From positions 1 through 33,244 of IMG/VR virus record IMGVR_UViG_3300020420_000006: a stretch of 33,244 nt of DNA; one strand, 5' to 3'. Every line of letters starts with the position of its first letter. The first letter of the stretch is position 1. This document shows, piece after piece, positions 5,112-21,890 of the stretch. Made by a program: the position numbers and the translations under genes. The notes beneath the pieces are model-generated. The model did no database searches, had not been told where the DNA came from, and saw only the letters and a list, made by a program, of their open reading frames with translations. Origin of the DNA: a virus.

Positions 5112-5921
5112 TTAGTTATTATCGAGGACTTCGTAGACACCATTGTCATCAATGACAACAGCACCCATCGACATCATCGAAACAGTGAGGTGAGATACCT
5201 TCTCAGGGACATAATTCACTTCAGTCGAAACTTCAGCATTTACCCCGATACCAACAGCATTCTGGTGGTAAGCAATATTTTTACCAGCAGTGATTGCCGA
5301 TGTTGAGAAGATATTGAAGCCAAGGAACTGCTTCATAGTCATGCCACCTGCAAATGGCAGATTCTGCTCACCAACAAAGTCAGACGATGCAAACTCGTTG
5401 ATAAGGAACAGATCAGCAAAACCTTTTGGGTGCATCGCAAGATAGCGTTGACCGTCTTCTGGCACGTTAGCCGTACCAAAGGTTTCAAACAGAGTAAGCA
5501 AATCAGCCTTCGCAAGAGCTGATCCAGTGTCATGGATTTGGGTCGAGTTCGCACCAGCATCCATTGCAGTATAGATAAGCTCGTCAGTCTTACGACCAAG
5601 CGCAGCAGCAGCCGATGTGGCTACAGCCTGACGCTCATCTATATTAGTCTTCAGTTCATCGAGCTTGTCGATGTACTCGGCTGCATAATGATCTGTCATC
5701 GATGCCTCGACGTTGGTGTGTACCAACTCCATAGGCGTGATGTTGCCATTACGCGATTTGGTGGAAGCAGTTCCTGCGCCGATCTTTTGGAAACGAACAA
5801 CGTTCCCGCTCACCTGCTGATTACGAATGGTGTTCTTTAGTTTAGAACCCATGCGCTGATAAGCCATGTGAACTTCGGACTCAAACTGCTTGATAAAGGC
5901 GGTATCAATAGTATTCGCCAT
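5112..5921 (-). CDS. Major capsid protein (HK97 fold expected)
   Basis: A 269-residue protein, shorter than T7 gp10A (345). It begins MANTIDTAFIKQFESEVHMA, followed by a VRFQKIGAGTASTKS block, an acidic TNIDERQAVATSAAAALGRK helix and a beta-rich C-terminal half ending VYEVLDNN. This matches a family of short tailed-phage coat proteins found in many environmental phages (I believe the Phage_capsid_2-type family, not verified). A good ribosome-binding site (AGGAAGGA) lies upstream, after an 81-base gap. Its place after scaffold and before tail genes supports the call. Confidence 0.92.
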   Translation of the reverse strand: MANTIDTAFIKQFESEVHMAYQRMGSKLKNTIRNQQVSGNVVRFQKIGAGTASTKSRNGNITPMELVHTNVEASMTDHYAAEYIDKLDELKTNIDERQAVATSAAAALGRKTDELIYTAMDAGANSTQIHDTGSALAKADLLTLFETFGTANVPEDGQRYLAMHPKGFADLFLINEFASSDFVGEQNLPFAGGMTMKQFLGFNIFSTSAITAGKNIAYHQNAVGIGVNAEVSTEVNYVPEKVSHLTVSMMSMGAVVIDDNGVYEVLDNN

Positions 5922-13999: not shown

Positions 14000-14575
14000 C
14001 TTATGTGCCTCGGGCCTTGCCCTCGGGTTCATACCCCCCCTGCAATCCCCCCCATTGCTACAACCGCCAGAACGCTGTGTCAACGCACATTGCCTTACGG
14101 CGGCTGCTTCGCAGCGGCGGGATGCGGCGCGGTCGCTTGGTCGCGAACGCCTTACCCGCGATATGTGCGCGAGAACACCGCGCCACAATTCCCTGTGGCG
14201 CTGTCCCGCTCGGGCCGCTCGGGCCACACAACACCTATCCACACGGCAGCGCAGGTCCGACTCGCGTCGGGCTGCGCTGCCTGACCACAAACGCCCTGCA
14301 TCCCCCCGCCCCATCCCTCTGCGGGATGGGGTCAAGGCGCGACCGTGCAGTGGCTCGGTCACACCTTGATCCGCGCGGTATCGAGTGTGTCACTGTCTGT
14401 CGTGCAGTCCGCGCGGACGGCCGCGCCCCACGTTGCGGGGCGCAAATGGTCAAGTCCAAAGGCACGCTGCGCCTTTGAACTTGAGGGGGCAGTGCGCCCG
14501 TGGTCATTTCCAATGGTGTAGTTGGAGATAACCTCCACCTGCAACACTTCAACAACACGATCTTGGGAGATCAAA
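14000..14575. other. GC-rich divergent intergenic island with a hairpin array
   Basis: It separates the leftward and rightward blocks. Within 300 bases there are: GCGCCACA/TGTGGCGC (14180-14201); a 10-bp stem GGCAGCGCAG/CTGCGCTGCC topped by CCGAC/GTCGG (14245-14281); CCCCATCCC/GGGATGGGG (14309-14331); GACCG/CGGTC (14341-14360); the palindrome GTCCGCGCGGAC (14407-14418); GCGCCCC/GGGGCGC (14423-14443); and CAAAGGC/GCCTTTG extended by CAAGT/ACTTG over one mismatch (14451-14483). A 9-bp tandem repeat GCTCGGGCC lies near 14208. Bases 14033-14053 carry C-runs. Open frames here lack ribosome-binding sites and look like artefacts of high GC. It could be a replication origin, a packaging site beside terS, or a structured RNA leader. 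Confidence 0.7.
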
Positions 14576-15115
14576 ATGACTCAGAAACTCACAGACCACA
14601 TCACTGACCTGTACATCGACAACTACGACGTTGGCTCATTCGACGACGAACGGAACATGTATCAGTCAGACGGCACCACCCTAAACGTCAAGTACAACAT
14701 GGGTGACAAGTACCTGCTTGGTGGGCGCTGCGACCAAGCAGCCTACGCTCTGACTGCGGCCAAGGATTGGTTCGACACCGCCGAAATGCGGTGCCATCAG
14801 GCCAACGAGGATCACGGTCCTCAATCACTGCGCGCGCAACGCGCACAGCTTGACCTGAGCAAAGCACAGGCCAAGCTGGCCAATGCCCAGATGTTCTTCG
14901 AGATTGACACAAACCTCTTCTACACTTTCACAGGTGTCATCTGGGGAGACGGTAACGTCACGCTCGACAACGGACGTCAATGGTGGATCGAATACAAGGA
15001 GCAGATGCGCGGAGGTAACACCGACGCTGCGCCTACCGCCAAGGCGCTAAAAGATCGCAAGAAGCTCCTCAAGCAACGTGCGGCTGACGCATCCACGGCA
15101 GCAGGCGTTCACTAA
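14576..15115 (+). CDS. First early protein, unknown
   Basis: A 179-residue acidic protein with a GGGAG ribosome-binding site six bases before the ATG. It begins MTQKLTDHITDLYIDNYDVG. The middle (residues about 50-115) is a long helix rich in Ala, Gln and Lys, probably a coiled coil; then a WGDGNVTLDNGRQWWIEYKE segment and a basic tail. The codons are visibly richer in G and C at third positions than the late genes. It has its own terminator just after the stop, so it may be expressed alone and early. No family recognised. Confidence 0.8.
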   Translation: MTQKLTDHITDLYIDNYDVGSFDDERNMYQSDGTTLNVKYNMGDKYLLGGRCDQAAYALTAAKDWFDTAEMRCHQANEDHGPQSLRAQRAQLDLSKAQAKLANAQMFFEIDTNLFYTFTGVIWGDGNVTLDNGRQWWIEYKEQMRGGNTDAAPTAKALKDRKKLLKQRAADASTAAGVH

Positions 15116-15123
15116 CTCCCACA

Positions 15124-15161
15124 GCGGGGGGCTTCGGCCCCTCGCTTCTTCTTTCTTCTTT
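15124..15161 (+). terminator. Intrinsic terminator with C(UUCG)G tetraloop
   Basis: GCGGGGGGC, loop TTCG, GCCCCTCGC: nine pairs with one G-U, closed by the very stable C(UUCG)G loop, followed by a pyrimidine tract TTCTTCTTTCTTCTTT. It begins nine bases after the stop of the first early gene. The 184 bases from here to the next gene hold another small inverted repeat (AGCAGG/CCTGCT near 15186) but no gene I can support. Confidence 0.85.
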
Positions 15162-15345
15162 CCCCTTAACCCCACTGCCACGCACAAGCAGGTCGGCCCT
15201 GCTGCGCACCCCCGAACCCCACCCGGCAAGTGCCACACGACGAGCAAGGTGCCTCACTAAACAACCTGCAACCCGGGGGGTGACGCGCTCCTTGGCTGCG
15301 ATTTCTTTGATCAAATTCATTTCATTTTGAAAACGGAGTAACCTG

Positions 15346-15537
15346 ATGTCTCAGTTTAGTTTTCGTGAATACTATTTGCTTGTGCGGAAACAAAAGACCG
15401 CACAACTCGAACAAATCCTCAACACCCCACGGATGAACGCACGCCTGACACGCAACCATATGGAAATCATCAGACTTGTTCTGCGCCAGCGTGAGCGTAA
15501 GTTGGGTATCTTTGCTGAAAAGGAGACAACTACATGA
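15346..15537 (+). CDS. Small early protein, unknown
   Basis: A 63-residue basic, helical protein, MSQFSFREYYLLVRKQKTAQ at the start. A CGGAG site lies eight bases before the ATG. Its stop overlaps the next start (ATGA). No motif is recognised. Its place at the head of the replication block fits a host-takeover or regulatory role, but nothing in the sequence shows it. Confidence 0.7.
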   Translation: MSQFSFREYYLLVRKQKTAQLEQILNTPRMNARLTRNHMEIIRLVLRQRERKLGIFAEKETTT

Positions 15538-15827
15538 GATCACGGGAAGATTATCTCGAACTAAAACTCAACTCAATCATGTCTGTATTACACAGGCACA
15601 TGGATGAGCTTGAACAGTTGCAGCTTGCTCGACCTGTTGAGTTTGCAGAAGTCCTTCTACGTCAAAAGCTGCTGCGTGAAATCATCAATGCAATCAGTAG
15701 TGTCGATGACAAATACGGTGATATCGTTGATTGCAGCAATGACTGTAACTACTCAGACATTACGAACGGTGAGTGTGAATGCTTCAACCGAGAGCAAGAT
15801 GAAATCGAATCGAGGTGTCCGGTATGA
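15534..15827 (+). CDS. Small early protein with Cys-rich tail, unknown
   Basis: A 97-residue protein. Residues 1-60 look like a helical hairpin (DYLELKLNSIMSVLHRHMDE, then a second helix RQKLLREIINAIS). The tail has five cysteines (67, 71, 81, 83, 95) in an acidic setting, which could bind a metal. It overlaps both neighbours by four bases (ATGA), so it is coupled to the DnaA-like gene that follows. Confidence 0.7.
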   Translation: MRSREDYLELKLNSIMSVLHRHMDELEQLQLARPVEFAEVLLRQKLLREIINAISSVDDKYGDIVDCSNDCNYSDITNGECECFNREQDEIESRCPV

Positions 15828-16318
15828 TCGATCAAGGCAGACTGATTGCACAGATTGTACTTGGTGTTTGCGAACTACGTAACTGCCAAGCCAACAGCAT
15901 CCTCGCACCACGTCGCCACAAGGAAGCGATGTACAACAGAATGTTGGTGTATTTGATTGCTCATGATTATTGCCAACTATCATACTCTGCTATTGGTAGA
16001 GTATTGAACCGGGATCACACCACGGTAATACATGGTGTGAAACGTGCGGTTGATGAATACGAAACCAACCGCGACTTTTGTAAGGACTACATCCAACTCA
16101 CACAGGAGGTCAGATTATGGATGGAACAACAACTCTCAACGACTTCGACTTCCCCGTCGAACTCGTTCCACTCTCGTGTCTTACAAGCGATGGACACAAT
16201 ATCAACGTACCCGAGAACATGTCCCGCGCCCTCATACGGCCAGATACAAATGACGTACTCGGTGTCCATGGTTCCAAGTACAGAATCACCACGCACAGTC
16301 AGGTCGTTGACACGGTAG
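15824..16318 (+). CDS. Stand-alone DnaA domain IV-like DNA-binding protein
   Basis: A 164-residue protein. Residues about 5-98 match the pattern of the DnaA C-terminal DNA-binding domain: helices with ILAPRRHKEAMYNRMLVYLI, then the turn LSYSAIGRVLNRDHTTVIHG with the DnaA signature RDHTTV (63-68), then a closing helix. There is no AAA+ ATPase domain. It may bind DnaA boxes or related phage sites, to help start phage replication or to interfere with host initiation. The last 67 codons overlap the next gene in another frame and read as a Ser/Thr/Pro-rich tail, so the functional part probably ends near residue 100. Confidence 0.8.
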   Translation: MIDQGRLIAQIVLGVCELRNCQANSILAPRRHKEAMYNRMLVYLIAHDYCQLSYSAIGRVLNRDHTTVIHGVKRAVDEYETNRDFCKDYIQLTQEVRLWMEQQLSTTSTSPSNSFHSRVLQAMDTISTYPRTCPAPSYGQIQMTYSVSMVPSTESPRTVRSLTR

Positions 16319-16974
16319 AAGAAGCTGTCGTTCAAGCAAACTTGAGCAGCGACCGCACCATGACGGTCGATGTCCACGAGAATGGCGCACTACTCAAAGG
16401 CACCATCAGCTTCAACGACATCACTATCCAGCCCGTTGTTGGTGACTACATTCGCTTCGACATCAACTTCTGGAACTCATACAACGGCCAATGGTCTATC
16501 CAGATTACTGGTGAAGGACGCCGCTTGTTCTGTATGAATGGGTGCAGCACCCCACATTCTGTGGCACGCACCTTCCGCAAGCACAGTTCTAGCATCAATC
16601 CAAAACAAGAAGCTGCCAAGCTATCAAAGTCTCTTGATATCTTCTTCAATCAAAAAGATGTCTGGAGTCAGTGGGCAAATTGCTCAGTGTTTTTGGATGA
16701 TGTCGAGTACTTCTTCAAAGAAGAATTGTGTCAGTACCCAAGCAACTCAAGCTGGGAGCGATACAACATGAAGCAGCTTGATGCACTGATGAAGCAGTAT
16801 CACGAGGAGCGTCAGACTCTCGGCAACACTGCTTGGGCTGCTTACAATGCAATGACTCATTGGGCATCACACCCTGATGCGTCAAAGCCATACAATGTAG
16901 AACGCTCACGATCTAATGCAGTTGCAAAAGCGTTGCGTTCAAACACATGGAATACCAAGGTACTTTGTTTGTAG
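16117..16974 (+). CDS. DUF932-type phage/plasmid protein
   Basis: A 285-residue protein with a strong site (AGGAGGT, six bases before ATG). The N-terminal half has the DUF932 layout: RALIRPDTNDVLGVHGSKYR (residues about 37-56), a beta-rich stretch, and FDINFWNSYNGQWSIQITGE followed by RRLFCMNGCST. The C-terminal half is helical. Members are common in phages and plasmids; function is not established, and a role in DNA metabolism is often suggested because of gene context. Its first 202 bases overlap the DnaA-like gene in a different frame. Confidence 0.8.
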   Translation: MDGTTTLNDFDFPVELVPLSCLTSDGHNINVPENMSRALIRPDTNDVLGVHGSKYRITTHSQVVDTVEEAVVQANLSSDRTMTVDVHENGALLKGTISFNDITIQPVVGDYIRFDINFWNSYNGQWSIQITGEGRRLFCMNGCSTPHSVARTFRKHSSSINPKQEAAKLSKSLDIFFNQKDVWSQWANCSVFLDDVEYFFKEELCQYPSNSSWERYNMKQLDALMKQYHEERQTLGNTAWAAYNAMTHWASHPDASKPYNVERSRSNAVAKALRSNTWNTKVLCL

Positions 16975-17083
16975 GGAGGCTTTTCCTTGCGCGGCACTAG
17001 CAGATGCCGGTCGTCAGATATCCAGCGGTCCCAGATTCTTTGTGTGTGTTTCTGTTTGGTGCCGTCAAGCTCGTGCCTCCCGG

Positions 17084-17214
17084 CTGTCAGAAGATAGCTG
17101 TGCAACACTGACAGTTATTATGGCGAGTATGGTTATCATCTGCGGGGGTCAGTCTTGCTGGTTAGGGGCTGACCCCCATCCCCAAAATCAGTGAAGAACC
17201 TGCTAGTTCTTCAC
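17084..17214 (+). other. Intergenic inverted-repeat cluster
   Basis: The 263 bases between the DUF932 gene and the next gene contain three inverted repeats in a row: CTGTCAG/CTGACAG (17084-17114), GGGGGTCAG/CTGACCCCC (17144-17177), and GTGAAGAAC/GTTCTTCAC with a six-base loop (17191-17214). The last is a perfect 9-bp hairpin ending 12 bases before a ribosome-binding site; no clean T-run follows it. The set could be terminators, an origin or an RNA leader. Confidence 0.55.
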
Positions 17215-17237
17215 CACTTTCTGACTTGGAGGTCACG

Positions 17238-17543
17238 ATGAATCTCAGCATTACATGCAAACCAAATGGAATGACCGTTCAACGCATCGTTCATTCAGAC
17301 TTCACTACTGTTTTGTTCACCTTTGAAGATGCGAATGGTGGCAAACTCAAAGTAACAGTGAACGAATACGATACAGCCAAATGTTCACATTCAAAGTATC
17401 CACGCATACGAGAAGAACATGCGTATATTTCTGCTGCCGGTGTAGATTCTAATGTTGAGCAACGCGCAAGATACCCTATTTTTCTTCAGCAGATGACTGA
17501 TCTGGACGAATGGGAGACTCGTGATGACTACAAAATTGCGTGA
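17238..17543 (+). CDS. Hypothetical protein
   Basis: A 101-residue protein, MNLSITCKPNGMTVQRIVHS at the start, with a TTGGAGGTC site before the ATG. The N-terminal half alternates like beta strands (TTVLFTFEDANGGKLKVTVN); the C-terminal half is helical and charged. It overlaps the next gene by 20 bases. No domain recognised. Confidence 0.75.
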   Translation: MNLSITCKPNGMTVQRIVHSDFTTVLFTFEDANGGKLKVTVNEYDTAKCSHSKYPRIREEHAYISAAGVDSNVEQRARYPIFLQQMTDLDEWETRDDYKIA

Positions 17544-17715
17544 GCGTGTCTACAGAGTGAATGTATATATGACAGCATTTATTGATGTTGTTAATATCAA
17601 TGATGCATCGGCTCGTGTTATGGCTTGTGAGGAGCTTCGCAGAAAAATCGATGACAATTTTAAGTATGATGTCACCGAAACTGAACTGTATGACGTTGAC
17701 GAATTGCCACGGTAG
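17524..17715 (+). CDS. Small acidic protein, unknown
   Basis: A 63-residue protein, MTTKLRERVYRVNVYMTAFI then INDASARVMACEELRRKIDD and an acidic tail. The strand-helix layout could be a small alpha/beta fold. There is no clear ribosome-binding site; the start lies 20 bases inside the end of the previous gene, so coupling is likely. Confidence 0.65.
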   Translation: MTTKLRERVYRVNVYMTAFIDVVNINDASARVMACEELRRKIDDNFKYDVTETELYDVDELPR

Positions 17716-17727
17716 CTGTCAGCCACT

Positions 17728-17739
17728 TGCATATCTGCA
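17728..17739. promoter_or_regulatory. Operator candidate, TGCATATCTGCA
   Basis: Second copy of the TGCATATNTGCA palindrome. It lies between genes, about 20 bases before the ATG of a small helix-turn-helix protein. A weak promoter could run through it (TTGCAT, 18 bases, TACTGT). The position suits self-repression of that gene. Confidence 0.55.
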
Positions 17740-17760
17740 TCCTTTGTGAATACTGTGTGC

Positions 17761-17967
17761 ATGGATAGTTACTTTGCACAACTAAAAACTCTTTCAAATC
17801 AAAGAGATGTAGATTTACGTGCTGCTTTCTCATGGGCCAACATACCCGGCAGCACGTACTATCGTGCCAAAAAACGTGACGACATGAGATACGACACAGC
17901 GTTGAAAGTCCTCGATGCCATCAACAGAATTTACGCATCTCAGACAGCCGGTCAACATCGACCCTAA
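17761..17967 (+). CDS. Small helix-turn-helix protein, possible Cro/CI-type regulator
   Basis: A 68-residue protein from the ATG at 17761; an in-frame GTG at 17746 would add five residues. No Shine-Dalgarno sequence is visible before either, so it may be leaderless or poorly translated. Residues about 17-55 read as a lambda-repressor-type HTH: VDLRAAFSWANIPGSTYYRA, a recognition-helix region, and DTALKVLDAINRIY. The nearby palindrome is a natural target. It could be the phage's switch protein or an early-gene timer. Its end overlaps the next gene by 53 bases. Confidence 0.6.
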   Translation: MDSYFAQLKTLSNQRDVDLRAAFSWANIPGSTYYRAKKRDDMRYDTALKVLDAINRIYASQTAGQHRP

Positions 17968-18166
17968 CTGGCTACGTACCGTCGAGTGTCTTGTCGAGGC
18001 GCGTCACGCACACTCTCTGTCACAAGAAGCACTAGCCCACAAGATCGGCTGCGCCGCTTCTCTCATACACAAATGGGAACAGTACAAACGACTGCCATCA
18101 GGCTTCATGTTCTTATGCTGGCTGGAGGCACTCGATTGTGAAATCCAAGTACGACCGCGTAGGTAA
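17915..18166 (+). CDS. Helix-turn-helix (XRE-type) protein
   Basis: An 83-residue protein. Residues about 20-75 carry an XRE-type HTH: VECLVEARHAHSLSQEALAH, then KIGCAASLIHKWEQYKRLPS, then a helix. The exact start is uncertain: the ATG at 17915 gives a 53-base overlap and has only a weak site. It overlaps the following gene by 29 bases. Two small HTH genes in tandem may act together or antagonistically on the repeated palindrome. Confidence 0.65.
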   Translation: MPSTEFTHLRQPVNIDPNWLRTVECLVEARHAHSLSQEALAHKIGCAASLIHKWEQYKRLPSGFMFLCWLEALDCEIQVRPRR

Positions 18167-18407
18167 AGCAAAGAACTGCGATGCCTGTGGAACGCGCACC
18201 CATTACTATGTCTGTCCGCTCAAGCACAGCGGAGGATCGTACAACATCTGTCTTAACTGTTACGAGAAAGAGTCATGGCAAGCCGCGCTCGCGCTAAAGG
18301 AAACTACCACGAAAACTGGTTCATCAAATTATTCGAAACGTGGAAGATCAAAGCCAAAAAGCAGCCGCTCTCTGGCAGCTTGGGCGGCGAGTATCGAGGA
18401 GACATAG
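18138..18407 (+). CDS. Zinc-ribbon protein, unknown
   Basis: An 89-residue protein with a GTG start and GGAGG nine bases before it. Cysteines at 14, 17, 26, 38 and 41 (CDACG ... CPLKH ... CLNC) form a likely zinc ribbon. The C-terminal 44 residues are Ser/Lys/Thr-rich and overlap the next gene by 133 bases in another frame, so the working part is probably the first 45 residues. It may be a DNA- or protein-binding accessory of the nuclease encoded next to it. Confidence 0.6.
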   Translation: MKSKYDRVGKAKNCDACGTRTHYYVCPLKHSGGSYNICLNCYEKESWQAALALKETTTKTGSSNYSKRGRSKPKSSRSLAAWAASIEET

Positions 18408-18592
18408 TTCTCACAATTAACGGTGTCGAACTGATCACCGAAGTGAAGTACAGAAAAGGTACGTTCCCCTCACCCTTTACTGTACTCGACCGTAGAGATG
18501 CTGCTATATATAAGAGAGGCAACGGCACCGACCCCAAGTGGGTATTGATCCTGCCAGATCATGTCGTTGAAAAGATATGGAGGTCCAAGTGA
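18275..18592 (+). CDS. PD-(D/E)XK nuclease, Holliday-junction-resolvase-like
   Basis: A 105-residue protein with the Hjc-type core: E13 (GNYHENWF), the PLSGSLGGEYRGDI loop with D43, and ELITEVKYRK with E56 and K58. Then PFTVLDRRDAAIYK and KWVLILPDHVVEK, which fit the rest of the fold. Such enzymes cut four-way DNA junctions. Beside exonuclease and annealing protein genes it probably resolves recombination and replication intermediates before packaging. Other small PD-(D/E)XK families are possible. The start has only a weak ribosome-binding site. Confidence 0.75.
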   Translation: MASRARAKGNYHENWFIKLFETWKIKAKKQPLSGSLGGEYRGDIVLTINGVELITEVKYRKGTFPSPFTVLDRRDAAIYKRGNGTDPKWVLILPDHVVEKIWRSK

Positions 18593-18593
18593 A

Positions 18594-19199
18594 ATGGCAT
18601 ACAAACTTGTTGATGATGTCATCAACCATGACGTTGGCGATGCTATTGCCAAACTCGTTCTCATTGCACTCGCTCGTTTTGCAAATCAAAACAACCAGTG
18701 CTTCCCCAGCCTAGCAAAAATTTGTGAAGTCACTCATCTTTCTAACGCTACCGTGTGTAGAAAGTTGAACTGGCTTGAACAAAATGGATTTGTTTCACGT
18801 GAAACATCGAAAGGTGTCTCAACGCGATACACCCTACGTGTCTCACAGAGAGACCAAGTAGTCTCAGAGAGAGACACTAAGCTGTCAGTAAGCAATACAA
18901 AACATACAATACCGGATGAGTGGGTAGCATCGAAGGAGTTGCGTAACTCCATCAATGCTAAACTCAAATTGGAGGTCGACCATGACTATGAAGAAACTAG
19001 ATTCCGTAGCTGGAACCAAGCTCACGGCAAGAAGCTCACAGATTGGGACGCAGGCTACAAGCTCTGGTGCAATCGTATTGACCCAGAAAGAAGCCCAAGG
19101 AGCTTTGGAAGTATTATCCCAGCCAGATCGTCAGCCAAGCGGCACCAACCTCAATCTTCTTTCTTCTCTCGCGCAGCACGGAGTCTCACTGGAACCTGA
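18594..19199 (+). CDS. Replication initiation protein with winged helix
   Basis: A 201-residue protein. Residues about 1-84 form a helix_turn_helix_36-type winged helix (IALARFANQNNQCFPSLAKI, then THLSNATVCRKLNWLEQNGF, then a wing RYTLRV). A variable linker follows, then RFRSWNQAHGKKLTDWDAGY and KLWCNR (about 150-175), the aromatic motif found at the C-terminus of phage initiators and DnaT-like helicase-recruiting proteins. It probably binds an origin and brings in host helicase. GGAGGTC lies about ten bases before the ATG. The last 73 codons overlap the next gene in another frame. Confidence 0.75.
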   Translation: MAYKLVDDVINHDVGDAIAKLVLIALARFANQNNQCFPSLAKICEVTHLSNATVCRKLNWLEQNGFVSRETSKGVSTRYTLRVSQRDQVVSERDTKLSVSNTKHTIPDEWVASKELRNSINAKLKLEVDHDYEETRFRSWNQAHGKKLTDWDAGYKLWCNRIDPERSPRSFGSIIPARSSAKRHQPQSSFFSRAARSLTGT

Positions 19200-19569
19200 G
19201 TTTACATCGAACTATGAGGTAAAAAAATTCAAACCAACCTTGGCTCGTGACGTCAACCTAGATGATTGTCGTCGTATGATTGAGATGGCTATGGTTCCTA
19301 TGACTGTTGCTGATATGGAGAAAGCATTGCTGACATCTATGATGTTGATGACCAAGAGTCCCGGCGACACAGCAGAAGACTGTGCTATGCGTTGCAAGCT
19401 GTATGCTAATCAAATGCAAGATTGGCCTGCTGACTGCTTCAACTACACATTGAAGGTTGTGACTCGGCATCACAAATGGTGGCCAGCCTTTTCTGATTTC
19501 TACAAAGAGTACTCATGGATTGTACGTCCACGATTGAAGATGCAAGAATGTCTTTCAGACTTGACCTAG
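18982..19569 (+). CDS. Hypothetical protein, possible replication partner
   Basis: A 195-residue protein with an excellent site (TTGGAGGTC, spaced four bases), which supports the start despite a 218-base overlap with the initiator gene. The first 65 residues are low in structure. Residues about 85-190 are helical: DVNLDDCRRMIEMAMVPMTV, a Met-rich helix, then MQDWPADCFNYTLKVVTRHH and KWWPAFSDFYKEYSW. The place directly after an initiator is where phages often encode a helicase loader, but I see no ATP-binding motif, so this is only a suggestion. Confidence 0.7.
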   Translation: MTMKKLDSVAGTKLTARSSQIGTQATSSGAIVLTQKEAQGALEVLSQPDRQPSGTNLNLLSSLAQHGVSLEPEFTSNYEVKKFKPTLARDVNLDDCRRMIEMAMVPMTVADMEKALLTSMMLMTKSPGDTAEDCAMRCKLYANQMQDWPADCFNYTLKVVTRHHKWWPAFSDFYKEYSWIVRPRLKMQECLSDLT

Positions 19570-19589
19570 GTGCATATATGCACTAAATA
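19561..19589 (+). promoter_or_regulatory. Promoter candidate with palindromic operator in the spacer
   Basis: TTGACC (-35, five of six), a 17-base spacer, then TAAATA (-10, weak). The spacer contains GTGCATATATGCAC (19570-19583), a perfect 14-bp palindrome and the best copy of the TGCATATNTGCA motif. An operator between -35 and -10 is the classic place for repression. The exonuclease gene starts 24 bases downstream, so this could control the recombination genes. Confidence 0.5.
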
Positions 19590-19612
19590 TATTCCAACGA
19601 TTGGAGGTCGTA

Positions 19613-20398
19613 ATGGAACGCACTGGATTTATTGGCGGCTCCGACATGATGACTATCATGGACGGAGATTGGGAATATCTTTGGCAGATCAAAACGGGTC
19701 GTGCAGTGCCTGATGATTTGTCGAATGTCTTCCCGGTACAACTCGGCATCGCCACCGAAGAGTTCAATATGTCACTGGTTGAAGATGCAACACTGCCGAT
19801 GGACCGGCAGCATGTTGTTGCAAACTGGTGGGAAGGTGTGCCGCTCAAGGCAACGCTCGATGGGTATCGCCGTGATCTCAATGGCAATGGCGTTGGTGTA
19901 GAGTGCAAGCACACTCACGAACGAAACACCCTTGATAACCAACTTCAAAAATATATGCCGCAGCTTCAGTTCTACATGTGGGTTGCTGATTGCCAGTATA
20001 TGTATTTCGCCAACATCTTTGGCAATCGTGATTGGAAAATGTGCAAGGTCCAGCGTGACACTGCATACATTGAAGCAATGCAAACACCGCTGAAGGAGTT
20101 TTGGCATTTCGTCAACACTGATCAGCAGCCACAGCTTCCGCACTATCCTGTCATGCAACCCGGCATTAAGCACATACCAATTGATGACATGATCAGTCGT
20201 GACATGAACAGCGACAACCAGTTTATGGATCGCGCCCACACCTTCATCGAAACGAAGGACGCGCACAAGGTCCACGAATCAGCCAAAGCTGATCTCAAAG
20301 CCATGCTCGGCGAAGACGAGCGTGAGCTTGTATCGGACGTACTGTCCGTAAGACGCACCAAGTCAGGTGTACGCATCACAGCCAAAAAGGAGGTGTAG
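19613..20398 (+). CDS. YqaJ / lambda-Exo-like 5'-3' exonuclease
   Basis: A 261-residue nuclease with a TTGGAGGTC site. It begins with the YqaJ pattern RTGFIGGSD (residues 3-11), then LGIATEE with E49/E50, PLKATLDGY with the metal-binding D83, GVECKH with E97 and K99, and YMPQLQFYMWV with Q117/Q119. This is the PD-(D/E)XK fold of phage recombination exonucleases. It resects double-stranded ends to give 3' tails for the Erf-type annealing protein encoded downstream. Confidence 0.88.
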   Translation: MERTGFIGGSDMMTIMDGDWEYLWQIKTGRAVPDDLSNVFPVQLGIATEEFNMSLVEDATLPMDRQHVVANWWEGVPLKATLDGYRRDLNGNGVGVECKHTHERNTLDNQLQKYMPQLQFYMWVADCQYMYFANIFGNRDWKMCKVQRDTAYIEAMQTPLKEFWHFVNTDQQPQLPHYPVMQPGIKHIPIDDMISRDMNSDNQFMDRAHTFIETKDAHKVHESAKADLKAMLGEDERELVSDVLSVRRTKSGVRITAKKEV

Positions 20399-20399
20399 T

Positions 20400-20642
20400 G
20401 TGACGCAAAACCAACAAATCCTAGCAGCCTTGAGGGATGGCAAACGCATCAGTCCGCTGTCCGCTCTGCAAGACTATGGCTGCATGAGACTCGCGGCTCG
20501 TATCTATGATCTGCGGGATCAGGGCTGGGATATTCAGTCCATTTCAACAACCAATGGCAAAGCCACATGGATGGAATATAAAATGGCCGAGGACGCTGCC
20601 ACATCCCCGGCCAGTGTTCAAACAGATTGGAGGTCAGTTTGA
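20400..20642 (+). CDS. Small winged-helix protein
   Basis: An 80-residue protein with a GTG start and AGGAGGT seven bases before it. QNQQILAALRDGKRISPLSA, DYGCMRLAARIYDLRDQGWD and IQSISTTNG match the HTH_39-type domain found in many phage early operons. It sits between the exonuclease and the annealing protein, and its stop overlaps the next start (TGATG). It may bind DNA as a regulator or recombination accessory; the sequence does not tell which. Confidence 0.75.
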   Translation: MTQNQQILAALRDGKRISPLSALQDYGCMRLAARIYDLRDQGWDIQSISTTNGKATWMEYKMAEDAATSPASVQTDWRSV

Positions 20643-21139
20643 TGACTAAACCTACCTCAAAGGACTCGTCGCCCAAAGCGAAAAGTGATCCGAAGATACA
20701 ACATCTTGAGCAAGCACTTGTTGCTTGGCACAAGACCTTGCCCTCTGCATCAAAGGGCGGCAGCAATCCTCACTTCCGCAGCAGCTATTCAACGCTGGAA
20801 GAGGTCATTGCTGTAGCTGAAACTGCCACAGAGTTTGGCATTACCTTTACTCAACTGACTGACTTTACAGTCATTGAGGGTGGCGTCATCGAATACGTGA
20901 AGACATGGGTCATGCACGAAAGCGGTGAACGTCTAGAAGCCCGTACCCTTATCAAAGCTAAGGATAAGAGTAATCCCCAGCAGATGGGTTCGGGTATCAC
21001 CTATGCTAAGCGTTATGGTTTACAAGCCGCGCTTGGCATCCCATCCGAAGACGACGACGCAAATGCTGCCACTAAACCAAAAGCTGAAGAGGTCGTCGAG
21101 TTCGGCAACAAGGCAACAAACACCGATGGAGGTTGGTAA
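20642..21139 (+). CDS. erf: Erf-family single-strand annealing protein
   Basis: A 165-residue protein. The N-terminus is Lys/Ser-rich, then LEQALVAWHKTLPSASKGGS, NPHFRSSYSTLEEVIAVAET, and the typical block KDKSNPQQMGSGITYAKRYG (residues about 109-128) followed by LQAALGIPSEDDDAN. This is the Erf superfamily signature. It anneals complementary single strands made by the exonuclease, circularising genomes or building concatemers. The acidic tail resembles those that contact partner proteins. A TTGGAGGTC site lies before the start. Confidence 0.92.
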   Translation: MTKPTSKDSSPKAKSDPKIQHLEQALVAWHKTLPSASKGGSNPHFRSSYSTLEEVIAVAETATEFGITFTQLTDFTVIEGGVIEYVKTWVMHESGERLEARTLIKAKDKSNPQQMGSGITYAKRYGLQAALGIPSEDDDANAATKPKAEEVVEFGNKATNTDGGW

Positions 21140-21140
21140 C

Positions 21141-21395
21141 ATGCCTATATTCAAGTCTAATATCGCTATCCCCCCACGTCCTCTTCCTACGCCTAATTCA
21201 AAGGGAACCAAGAAGTATGCTTGGCTTGCTAATTGGAAGGTTGGGGATTGTATCGAAGTTGATACCGAAGAAGATTGCCAGCGCATCGACGGTGCTGTAA
21301 GGGCTTTTGGATTTGGTGGTGTGCCGGGCAAGCTGTCACGCCGTAAGATCAATGAAGATGGTCAGACCTTTTACCGTGTATGGAGGATTTCTTGA
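21141..21395 (+). CDS. Hypothetical protein of the recombination block
   Basis: An 84-residue basic protein, MPIFKSNIAIPPRPLPTPNS, then KKYAWLANWKVGDCIEVDTE and a basic GKLSRRKINEDGQTFYRVWR ending in Ile-Ser. The second half could be a small alpha/beta domain. GGAGGT lies before the ATG. Its stop overlaps the TTG start of the SSB-like gene. No family recognised. Confidence 0.7.
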   Translation: MPIFKSNIAIPPRPLPTPNSKGTKKYAWLANWKVGDCIEVDTEEDCQRIDGAVRAFGFGGVPGKLSRRKINEDGQTFYRVWRIS

Positions 21396-21769
21396 GTCAG
21401 TATGACGACACGGATCGTGGGGCGGCATTCCCGCCTCGCGAGAACCAGCAGATGATTCTGTCTGGTCCAATCAATGACAACGGCGAGGACTCTCGTGTCG
21501 CCGTTGTCAAATCAATGCTGCCTGATGGCCGGGTTATCTTTGACCTGTACCAGAAGGTCGGCACCTTGTTCGACAATGAGTCGGAGAAGCCCAACGCACC
21601 GCACTTCACCGGTCCATGGAAAGGTCGGCGGGTCGCTGCTTGGAAAGCAGAAAAAGACGATGGCACTAAATACATGCAGCTTCGTCTGTCAGACCGCATG
21701 GCAAAAGAACAGCCAGCAGTCCACGAAACTGAAGCCACCCCGCTTCCGGCCGATGACATCCCGTTCTAG
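21392..21769 (+). CDS. SSB-like protein with acidic DDIPF tip
   Basis: A 125-residue protein. I chose the TTG at 21392, with TGGAGG five bases upstream and overlapping the previous stop; an ATG at 21380 is the alternative. Beta-strand segments (RVAVVKSMLPDGRVIFDLYQ, then GRRVAAWKAEKDDGTKYMQL) suit an OB-fold or DUF736-like barrel. The last residues ADDIPF copy the acidic tip by which bacterial SSB proteins recruit partners. With an exonuclease and an annealing protein upstream, a role as the phage single-strand binding protein is likely but not proven. Confidence 0.6.
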   Translation: MSQYDDTDRGAAFPPRENQQMILSGPINDNGEDSRVAVVKSMLPDGRVIFDLYQKVGTLFDNESEKPNAPHFTGPWKGRRVAAWKAEKDDGTKYMQLRLSDRMAKEQPAVHETEATPLPADDIPF

Positions 21770-21890
21770 GCCGTACGCCGCCGCACTGCTCTCTACAAAG
21801 CGAGTGCGGCGGCGATCACGCTTCCGGCAACGAACTGCCTTAGTTATACTCGCTGCCCTTGTAGCAACCTTTATCCTGATTGGAGAGTAG
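21753..21890 (+). CDS. Possible small membrane protein
   Basis: A 45-residue reading frame: MTSRSRPYAAALLSTKRVRR, then RSRFRQRTA and a single hydrophobic stretch LVILAALVATFILIGE. A basic stretch followed by one membrane segment is a believable topology, and the frame ends one base before the next gene. Against it: no ribosome-binding site, and a 12-bp perfect inverted repeat lies within it, which may be the real content of this gap. Confidence 0.4.
   Translation: MTSRSRPYAAALLSTKRVRRRSRFRQRTALVILAALVATFILIGE
21776..21814 (+). other. Strong hairpin after the SSB-like gene
   Basis: CGCCGCCGCACT and AGTGCGGCGGCG form a perfect 12-bp stem; inner GCT/AGC can add three pairs. No T-run follows, so intrinsic termination is unlikely. 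It could mark an mRNA processing or stability point, or be a byproduct of codons in the overlapping small reading frame. Confidence 0.5.

Follow-up and report, generated by a model that had tools for sequence, protein, structure and literature searches.

Why would a phage carry the DNA-binding domain of the bacterial initiator DnaA detached from the rest of the protein? The question is raised by a 164-aa open reading frame (ORF) with an ATG start at positions 15824 to 16318 (plus strand) of IMG/VR virus record IMGVR_UViG_3300020420_000006, of which positions 1 to 33,244 form the stretch analyzed here (the window). Many phage annotations include a free DnaA domain IV gene, frequently under the label of replication initiation, and a protein of about 100 residues that is invariant solely at its DNA-contact residues makes an easy test object. 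Should such proteins act as decoys, they would offer phages a simple route to stopping host initiation; should they act at phage origins, the view of HTVC010P-type phage replication would change.

The 164-aa ORF encodes a predicted free DnaA domain IV

The start codon of the free domain IV gene (here called dnaA-IV) shares the tetranucleotide ATGA with the stop of the preceding ORF. Residues 9 to 74 of the product matched the Pfam family Bac_DnaA_C (PF08299) with 51.1 bits and an E value of 1.4e-13; the curated cutoff is 31.5 bits, which places the profile match far beyond chance. Bac_DnaA_C was the sole family above its cutoff: no match to the AAA+ domain III, which in the same protein would mark a full-length DnaA initiator, was found in the 164 residues. 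A PHROG without known function, phrog_16091, matched as well (4.1e-6). Searching with the sequence alone, we recovered the DnaA domain IV structures 3pvp, 1l8q/2hcb, and 1j1v, and the significant matches among solved structures were exclusively to DnaA.

An AlphaFold2 model, built from a four-sequence alignment, was confident over approximately residues 1 to 105 (mean pLDDT per block of 80 to 93 for residues 1 to 100) and of low confidence beyond approximately residue 110. The nine best PDB matches in a Foldseek search with this model were all DnaA; the E values were weak, 1.8e-3 at best, with a probability of 1.00. Compared with DnaA-DNA complexes, the model gave an rmsd of 1.4 Å for 3pvp, the leading match, and 1.6 Å for 1j1v. 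The pLDDT values and the alignment with Escherichia coli domain IV delimit a folded domain, consisting of a helix-turn-helix and a long C-terminal helix, to about residues 1 to 105 (15824 to 16138, plus strand), and these residues are the real domain of the 164-aa protein. As judged from sequence and model, the product is a free DnaA domain IV without an ATPase, oligomerization, or helicase-loading part. The first-pass annotation had proposed just such a DnaA domain IV-like protein lacking the ATPase domain, on the strength of an RDHTTV signature that is indeed present at residues 63 to 68, and the profile search and structural comparison that it suggested as checks both came out in its favor.

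The DNA-contact residues are kept in free phage domains

We built an alignment (A3) of E. coli domain IV and 13 free domains encoded by phages. The invariant residues were solely R31, R39, D64, and H65 of the window protein, equivalent to E. coli R399, R407, D433, and H434 as numbered from the chain positions in the structure-search alignment. The R31 codon (15914 to 15916, plus strand) thus aligns with that of R399, an arginine that, in the account given in one review, inserts into the minor groove of the DnaA box; the same account describes R399A and T435M as defective in box binding (PMC5742627). The RDHTT signature, R63-D64-H65-T66-T67 (16010 to 16024, plus strand), aligns with E. coli R432 to T436, and the window protein has both threonines, T66 and T67, of this helix. 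Among the 13 phage proteins, the T435-equivalent position (T66) is threonine in 11 and alanine in two, those of Harreka and phi19:3. An NMR study of Bacillus subtilis DnaA describes a conserved histidine that begins the recognition helix and sits in the major groove (PMC11511705); by our own reading, this histidine is the equivalent of H434. The window protein is predicted to read DnaA-box-like DNA (in probe form, TTATCCACA), and its identity as a free domain IV is supported by predicted fold and contact residues as well as by sequence.

The gene is accessory in related phages

Three related viral contigs carried the full gene (L001, L002, and L003), and a fourth, L007, had a copy cut at the contig edge. 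The protein shared 54 to 57% identity with those of L002 and L003, with the contact residues unchanged, and the position of the gene before a DUF932 gene was kept in the window, L001, L002, and L003. Of 114 loci with DUF932 relatives, 80 were kept, and a domain profile found dnaA-IV in four of them (L003, L007, and L011 and L012, which are the L001 and L002 contigs). The other 76 had no clear match, 6 of these being uninformative because they begin less than 450 nt upstream of DUF932; L070 gave one weak match of 14 bits, located elsewhere than the DUF932 locus.

By tblastn against annotated phages, 14 records matched the window protein, and the Greip protein matched 21, of which 19 were Pelagibacter phages including HTVC010P. 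Seventeen BFVD models matched below 1e-3, several of them named DnaA C-terminal. Bac_DnaA_C was found in 14 of 18 records and was absent from Hodr, MEP301, HTVC019P, and the cut L007 contig. The DUF932 loci, together with Hodr and MEP301, mark the gene as accessory in these phages. A single case came up in bacterial genomes, in Paracoccus siganidrum, where an ORF of 108 aa neighbors one that looks integrase-like by eye; a search of bacterial genomes for DUF932 found none. Genes of this type are already annotated in phiGT1 (gene 62), phi19:3, and the Skadi phages, and Harreka also carries one. DnaA is named in print in a passage on HTVC010P-related phages (PMC6811365). A search by title and abstract found no experimental test of a free phage DnaA domain IV, and a term search found no mention of DnaA in two phiGT1 papers.

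The C-terminal tail lies in DNA shared with a DUF932 gene

The DUF932 gene (16117 to 16974, plus strand; 285 aa), recognized by profile matches and locus comparison, is a conserved partner directly downstream and has its own AGGAGG-type ribosome-binding site. Its 5′ end contains the last 202 nt of the dnaA-IV frame (16117 to 16318, plus strand), which encode the low-confidence tail, approximately residues 106 to 164, predicted to be disordered. The overlap measures 202 nt in the window, L001, and L007, 193 nt in L002, and 160 nt in L003. Within it, 12 sites distinguish the window from L007, and 9 of these are third positions of DUF932 codons; 7 of the changes are synonymous in DUF932, and none is synonymous in the dnaA-IV frame, where all 12 are nonsynonymous. 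The window and L001 differ there at just 3 sites, too few for judgment. Between the window and L002, third positions changed in 23 of 64 codons in the overlap versus 90 of 159 further down DUF932, and this lower rate may reflect some extra constraint on the overlap.

DUF932 relatives lacking dnaA-IV align to the query from residue 1, 6, or 8. Because these matches begin at about the first residues of the query, the simplest order of events puts the DUF932 start before the overlap and makes the tail a run-on into DUF932. A functional tail was rejected, as the overlap varies like DUF932-frame DNA and bears no mark of selection when read as dnaA-IV. The original description of the protein as only a domain plus a tail thus holds for the missing AAA+ domain and needs correction for the tail, which is DNA of the DUF932 5′ end. 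So long an overlap is unusual, and the window gene is a minimal form of a known phage gene type.

An accessory gene with an unselected tail might be a captured remnant of little function, carried along with the neighboring DUF932 gene. The folded part argues against this: over the 293 nt before the overlap, the window and L001 differ by 10 synonymous and 5 nonsynonymous changes. The identity with L002 and L003, the unchanged contact residues, and the kept place before DUF932 in the window and in L001 to L003 point the same way, and we regard a remnant as very improbable.

The phage seems to use host replication enzymes through its own O-like initiator

The minus strand of the window encodes the major head protein, head-tail adaptor, large terminase, internal virion protein, and tail fibers. 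Among the rightward genes, PHROG matches identified an O-like replication initiation protein of the HTH_36 type (18561 to 19199, plus strand; phrog_1032, E value of 1.2e-17), a RecE-like recombination exonuclease (19601 to 20398, plus strand; phrog_434, 1.4e-27), an Erf-like single-strand annealing protein (20627 to 21139, plus strand; phrog_2324, 1.9e-32), and a Holliday-junction-resolvase-like protein. The O-like ORF overlaps a conserved ORF (18955 to 19569) in a different frame, and ORFs 18138 to 18407 and 18275 to 18592 likewise share a long overlap in different frames. Lambda has its helicase loader gene, P, directly after O. The conserved 199-aa gene just after the O-like gene in the window (18970 to 19569) had no PHROG match, and the model of its product was of low confidence (mean pLDDT of 59). 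Phage DNA similarity was not found for 14500 to 21800, nor were tRNA or Rfam matches in the window.

DNA_pol_A and DnaB_C matched none of 15 carrier records including the window (10 plus 5 records tested), a set of carriers only, with no noncarrier control, that comprises 11 complete phage records and 4 IMG/VR records that are possibly fragments. HTH_36 occurred in 8 of 10 carriers, above the cutoff in 5, and phrog_1032 occurred in 6 of 13. Among Pelagibacter phages, there was no overlap between the 19 records with a DnaA domain IV and the 35 listed PolA records (36 match PolA); this pattern follows phage lineages, and ancestry alone may account for it. The first-pass annotation had stated that the genome has no polymerase or helicase and that the phage must recruit host replication. 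The first statement holds and the second is supported for the two families tested, DNA_pol_A and DnaB_C, in a virus record whose outermost ORFs are cut at either end, where the absence of a gene is therefore not final; the O-like initiator had been overlooked. Taken together, the gene content fits a small, podovirus-like phage whose O-like initiator seems to give it the use of the host polymerase and helicase. The major head protein (5112 to 5921) shares 50% identity with that of Pelagibacter phage Hodr, the nearest by capsid, and approximately 31% with that of Methylophilales phage MEP301, hinting at a marine host.

Consensus DnaA boxes are not in excess in carrier genomes

One use for a free domain IV would be to mark the phage origin, binding origin DNA and helping, with the O-like protein, to bring in the host helicase. 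Such a role would suit carriers without PolA and DnaB matches, and the Pelagibacter phage proteins are longer, with an N-terminal extension, and encoded a few genes after nuclease/annealing genes; genes of this kind are also annotated as DNA replication initiation. The box counts speak against it. The window contains no exact copy of TTATNCACA, a consensus box that may not be that of the host, and no cluster of near-matches: 18 sites have at most one mismatch, compared with 34.1 in dinucleotide shuffles and a mean of 27.6 for permuted words. We do not claim box depletion or avoidance, since 19% of the 250 permuted words had counts equal to or below that of the box. Consensus boxes were not in excess in any of seven carrier records (the window, phiGT1, Mae-JY35, Harreka, HTVC204P, Greip, and HTVC024P) or in four relatives' loci, where L005 and L006 (the L001 and L002 records) have one exact site each. 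The island at 14.2 kb holds one near-match, CTATCCACA at 14235, which is not kept in L002 and L003, the two relatives alignable there (L001 differs upstream, so the island alignment uses the window, L002, and L003).

A DnaA-box phage origin was accordingly rejected as unsupported for consensus boxes. The lack of excess in every counted carrier genome weakens the earlier suggestion that the protein could mark a phage origin, as do the unkept near-match and the phage's own O-like initiator. That initiator is encoded by a separate gene, and the window protein has no extension for helicase contact. We therefore consider an origin marker unlikely.

DnaA also serves as a transcription factor in bacteria, and the free domain could instead be a phage regulator with its own specificity, repressing or activating at phage operators such as might lie in the GC-rich (approximately 60%) divergent intergenic region at 14000 to 14575. 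The gene is near the start of the rightward cluster, downstream of this region, in which a block around GGCCGCTCGGGCCACACAACA and TCCACACGGC is largely kept in L002 and L003. A strong terminator-like hairpin (15123 to 15146; 10 pairs and a T-rich tail) follows a 179-aa gene and precedes the dnaA-IV cluster. L002 (as L006, 11828 to 12439) and L003 (3064 to 3759) encode a cI/LexA-like repressor on the minus strand, with its gene lying between a 64-aa gene and a small Cro-like gene; the corresponding window site is 17713 to 17763, and no match to this repressor was found in the window, L001 (as L005), or L007 records. The missing match suggests that these three form a virulent branch, and another regulator could be needed there. 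However, L002 and L003 carry dnaA-IV together with the repressor, so the one does not replace the other. A repeated operator set did not stand out either, and promoter-like matches were near chance (6 versus 4.9). A regulatory role is, in our estimate, doubtful.

A proposed role as a host-directed competitor fits the observations best

In the likeliest reading, the free domain IV would occupy host DnaA boxes and keep full-length DnaA from assembling. We put this forward tentatively, as a role that is quite possible. The protein would be made, probably early, from the rightward gene cluster, which holds regulatory, replication, and recombination functions, and would occupy the DnaA boxes of the host origin or of promoters under DnaA control. 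Full-length DnaA could then not assemble at those boxes, and fewer new rounds of chromosome initiation would leave the replication enzymes of the host to the phage. We observed the domain with its predicted fold and kept contact residues, its gene context, and a phage genome lacking consensus boxes; that the protein binds DNA, targets the host, is expressed early, and benefits the phage is what we infer.

Competition with host DnaA would be compatible with all of these observations. It is favored by the domain and fold, by the invariant contact residues, and by the absence of PolA and DnaB matches from carriers; in addition, carriers have no box excess, and the O-like protein could serve the phage origin. 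Against it, the gene is accessory, the polymerase pattern may reflect ancestry only, and the free domain may no longer share the box specificity of DnaA, which would leave the box count with little to say. A host-directed competitor fits best, though we hold it with no more than moderate confidence; its chief rival is a regulator that recognizes a motif of its own. A broader claim, which we rate as rather unlikely, is that many small polymerase-less phages, including the HTVC010P type, encode a domain IV decoy that blocks host initiation, their own genomes having no box excess, so that host enzymes serve the phage alone.

Comparison with known systems

Bacterial DnaA domain IV (PDB 1J1V and 3PVP) has the same fold as the window model, at an rmsd of 1.4 to 1.6 Å, and the same contact residues; bacterial DnaA also has domains I, II, and III, which the phage protein lacks. 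Lambda O-like initiators (phrog_1032 and related) have a counterpart in the window at 18561, a protein separate from the free domain IV. Sulfitobacter phage phiGT1 gene 62, a 348-nt gene annotated as DnaA C-terminal domain IV, encodes a similarly short free domain with 26% identity to the window protein in A3. The phiGT1 genome resembles the window in having an ERF gene and no PolA or DnaB match and differs in the neighbors of the gene and in lacking an O-like match. The HTVC010P-type Pelagibacter phages (HTVC010P, HTVC024P, HTVC203P, HTVC204P, Greip, Skadi-4, and Lederberg; 33.6 to 36 kb) also encode a free domain IV. Identity to the window protein in A3 is 17 to 19% for HTVC010P, Skadi-4, Lederberg, and HTVC203P and 24 to 25% for HTVC204P and Greip. 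As in the window, no PolA or DnaB match was found in the seven HTVC010P-type records tested, and putative nuclease and annealing genes lie nearby where annotated. Their proteins carry a long extension on the N-terminal side of the domain, whereas the window protein is the domain without it, with the same invariant residues and, like theirs, no ATPase.
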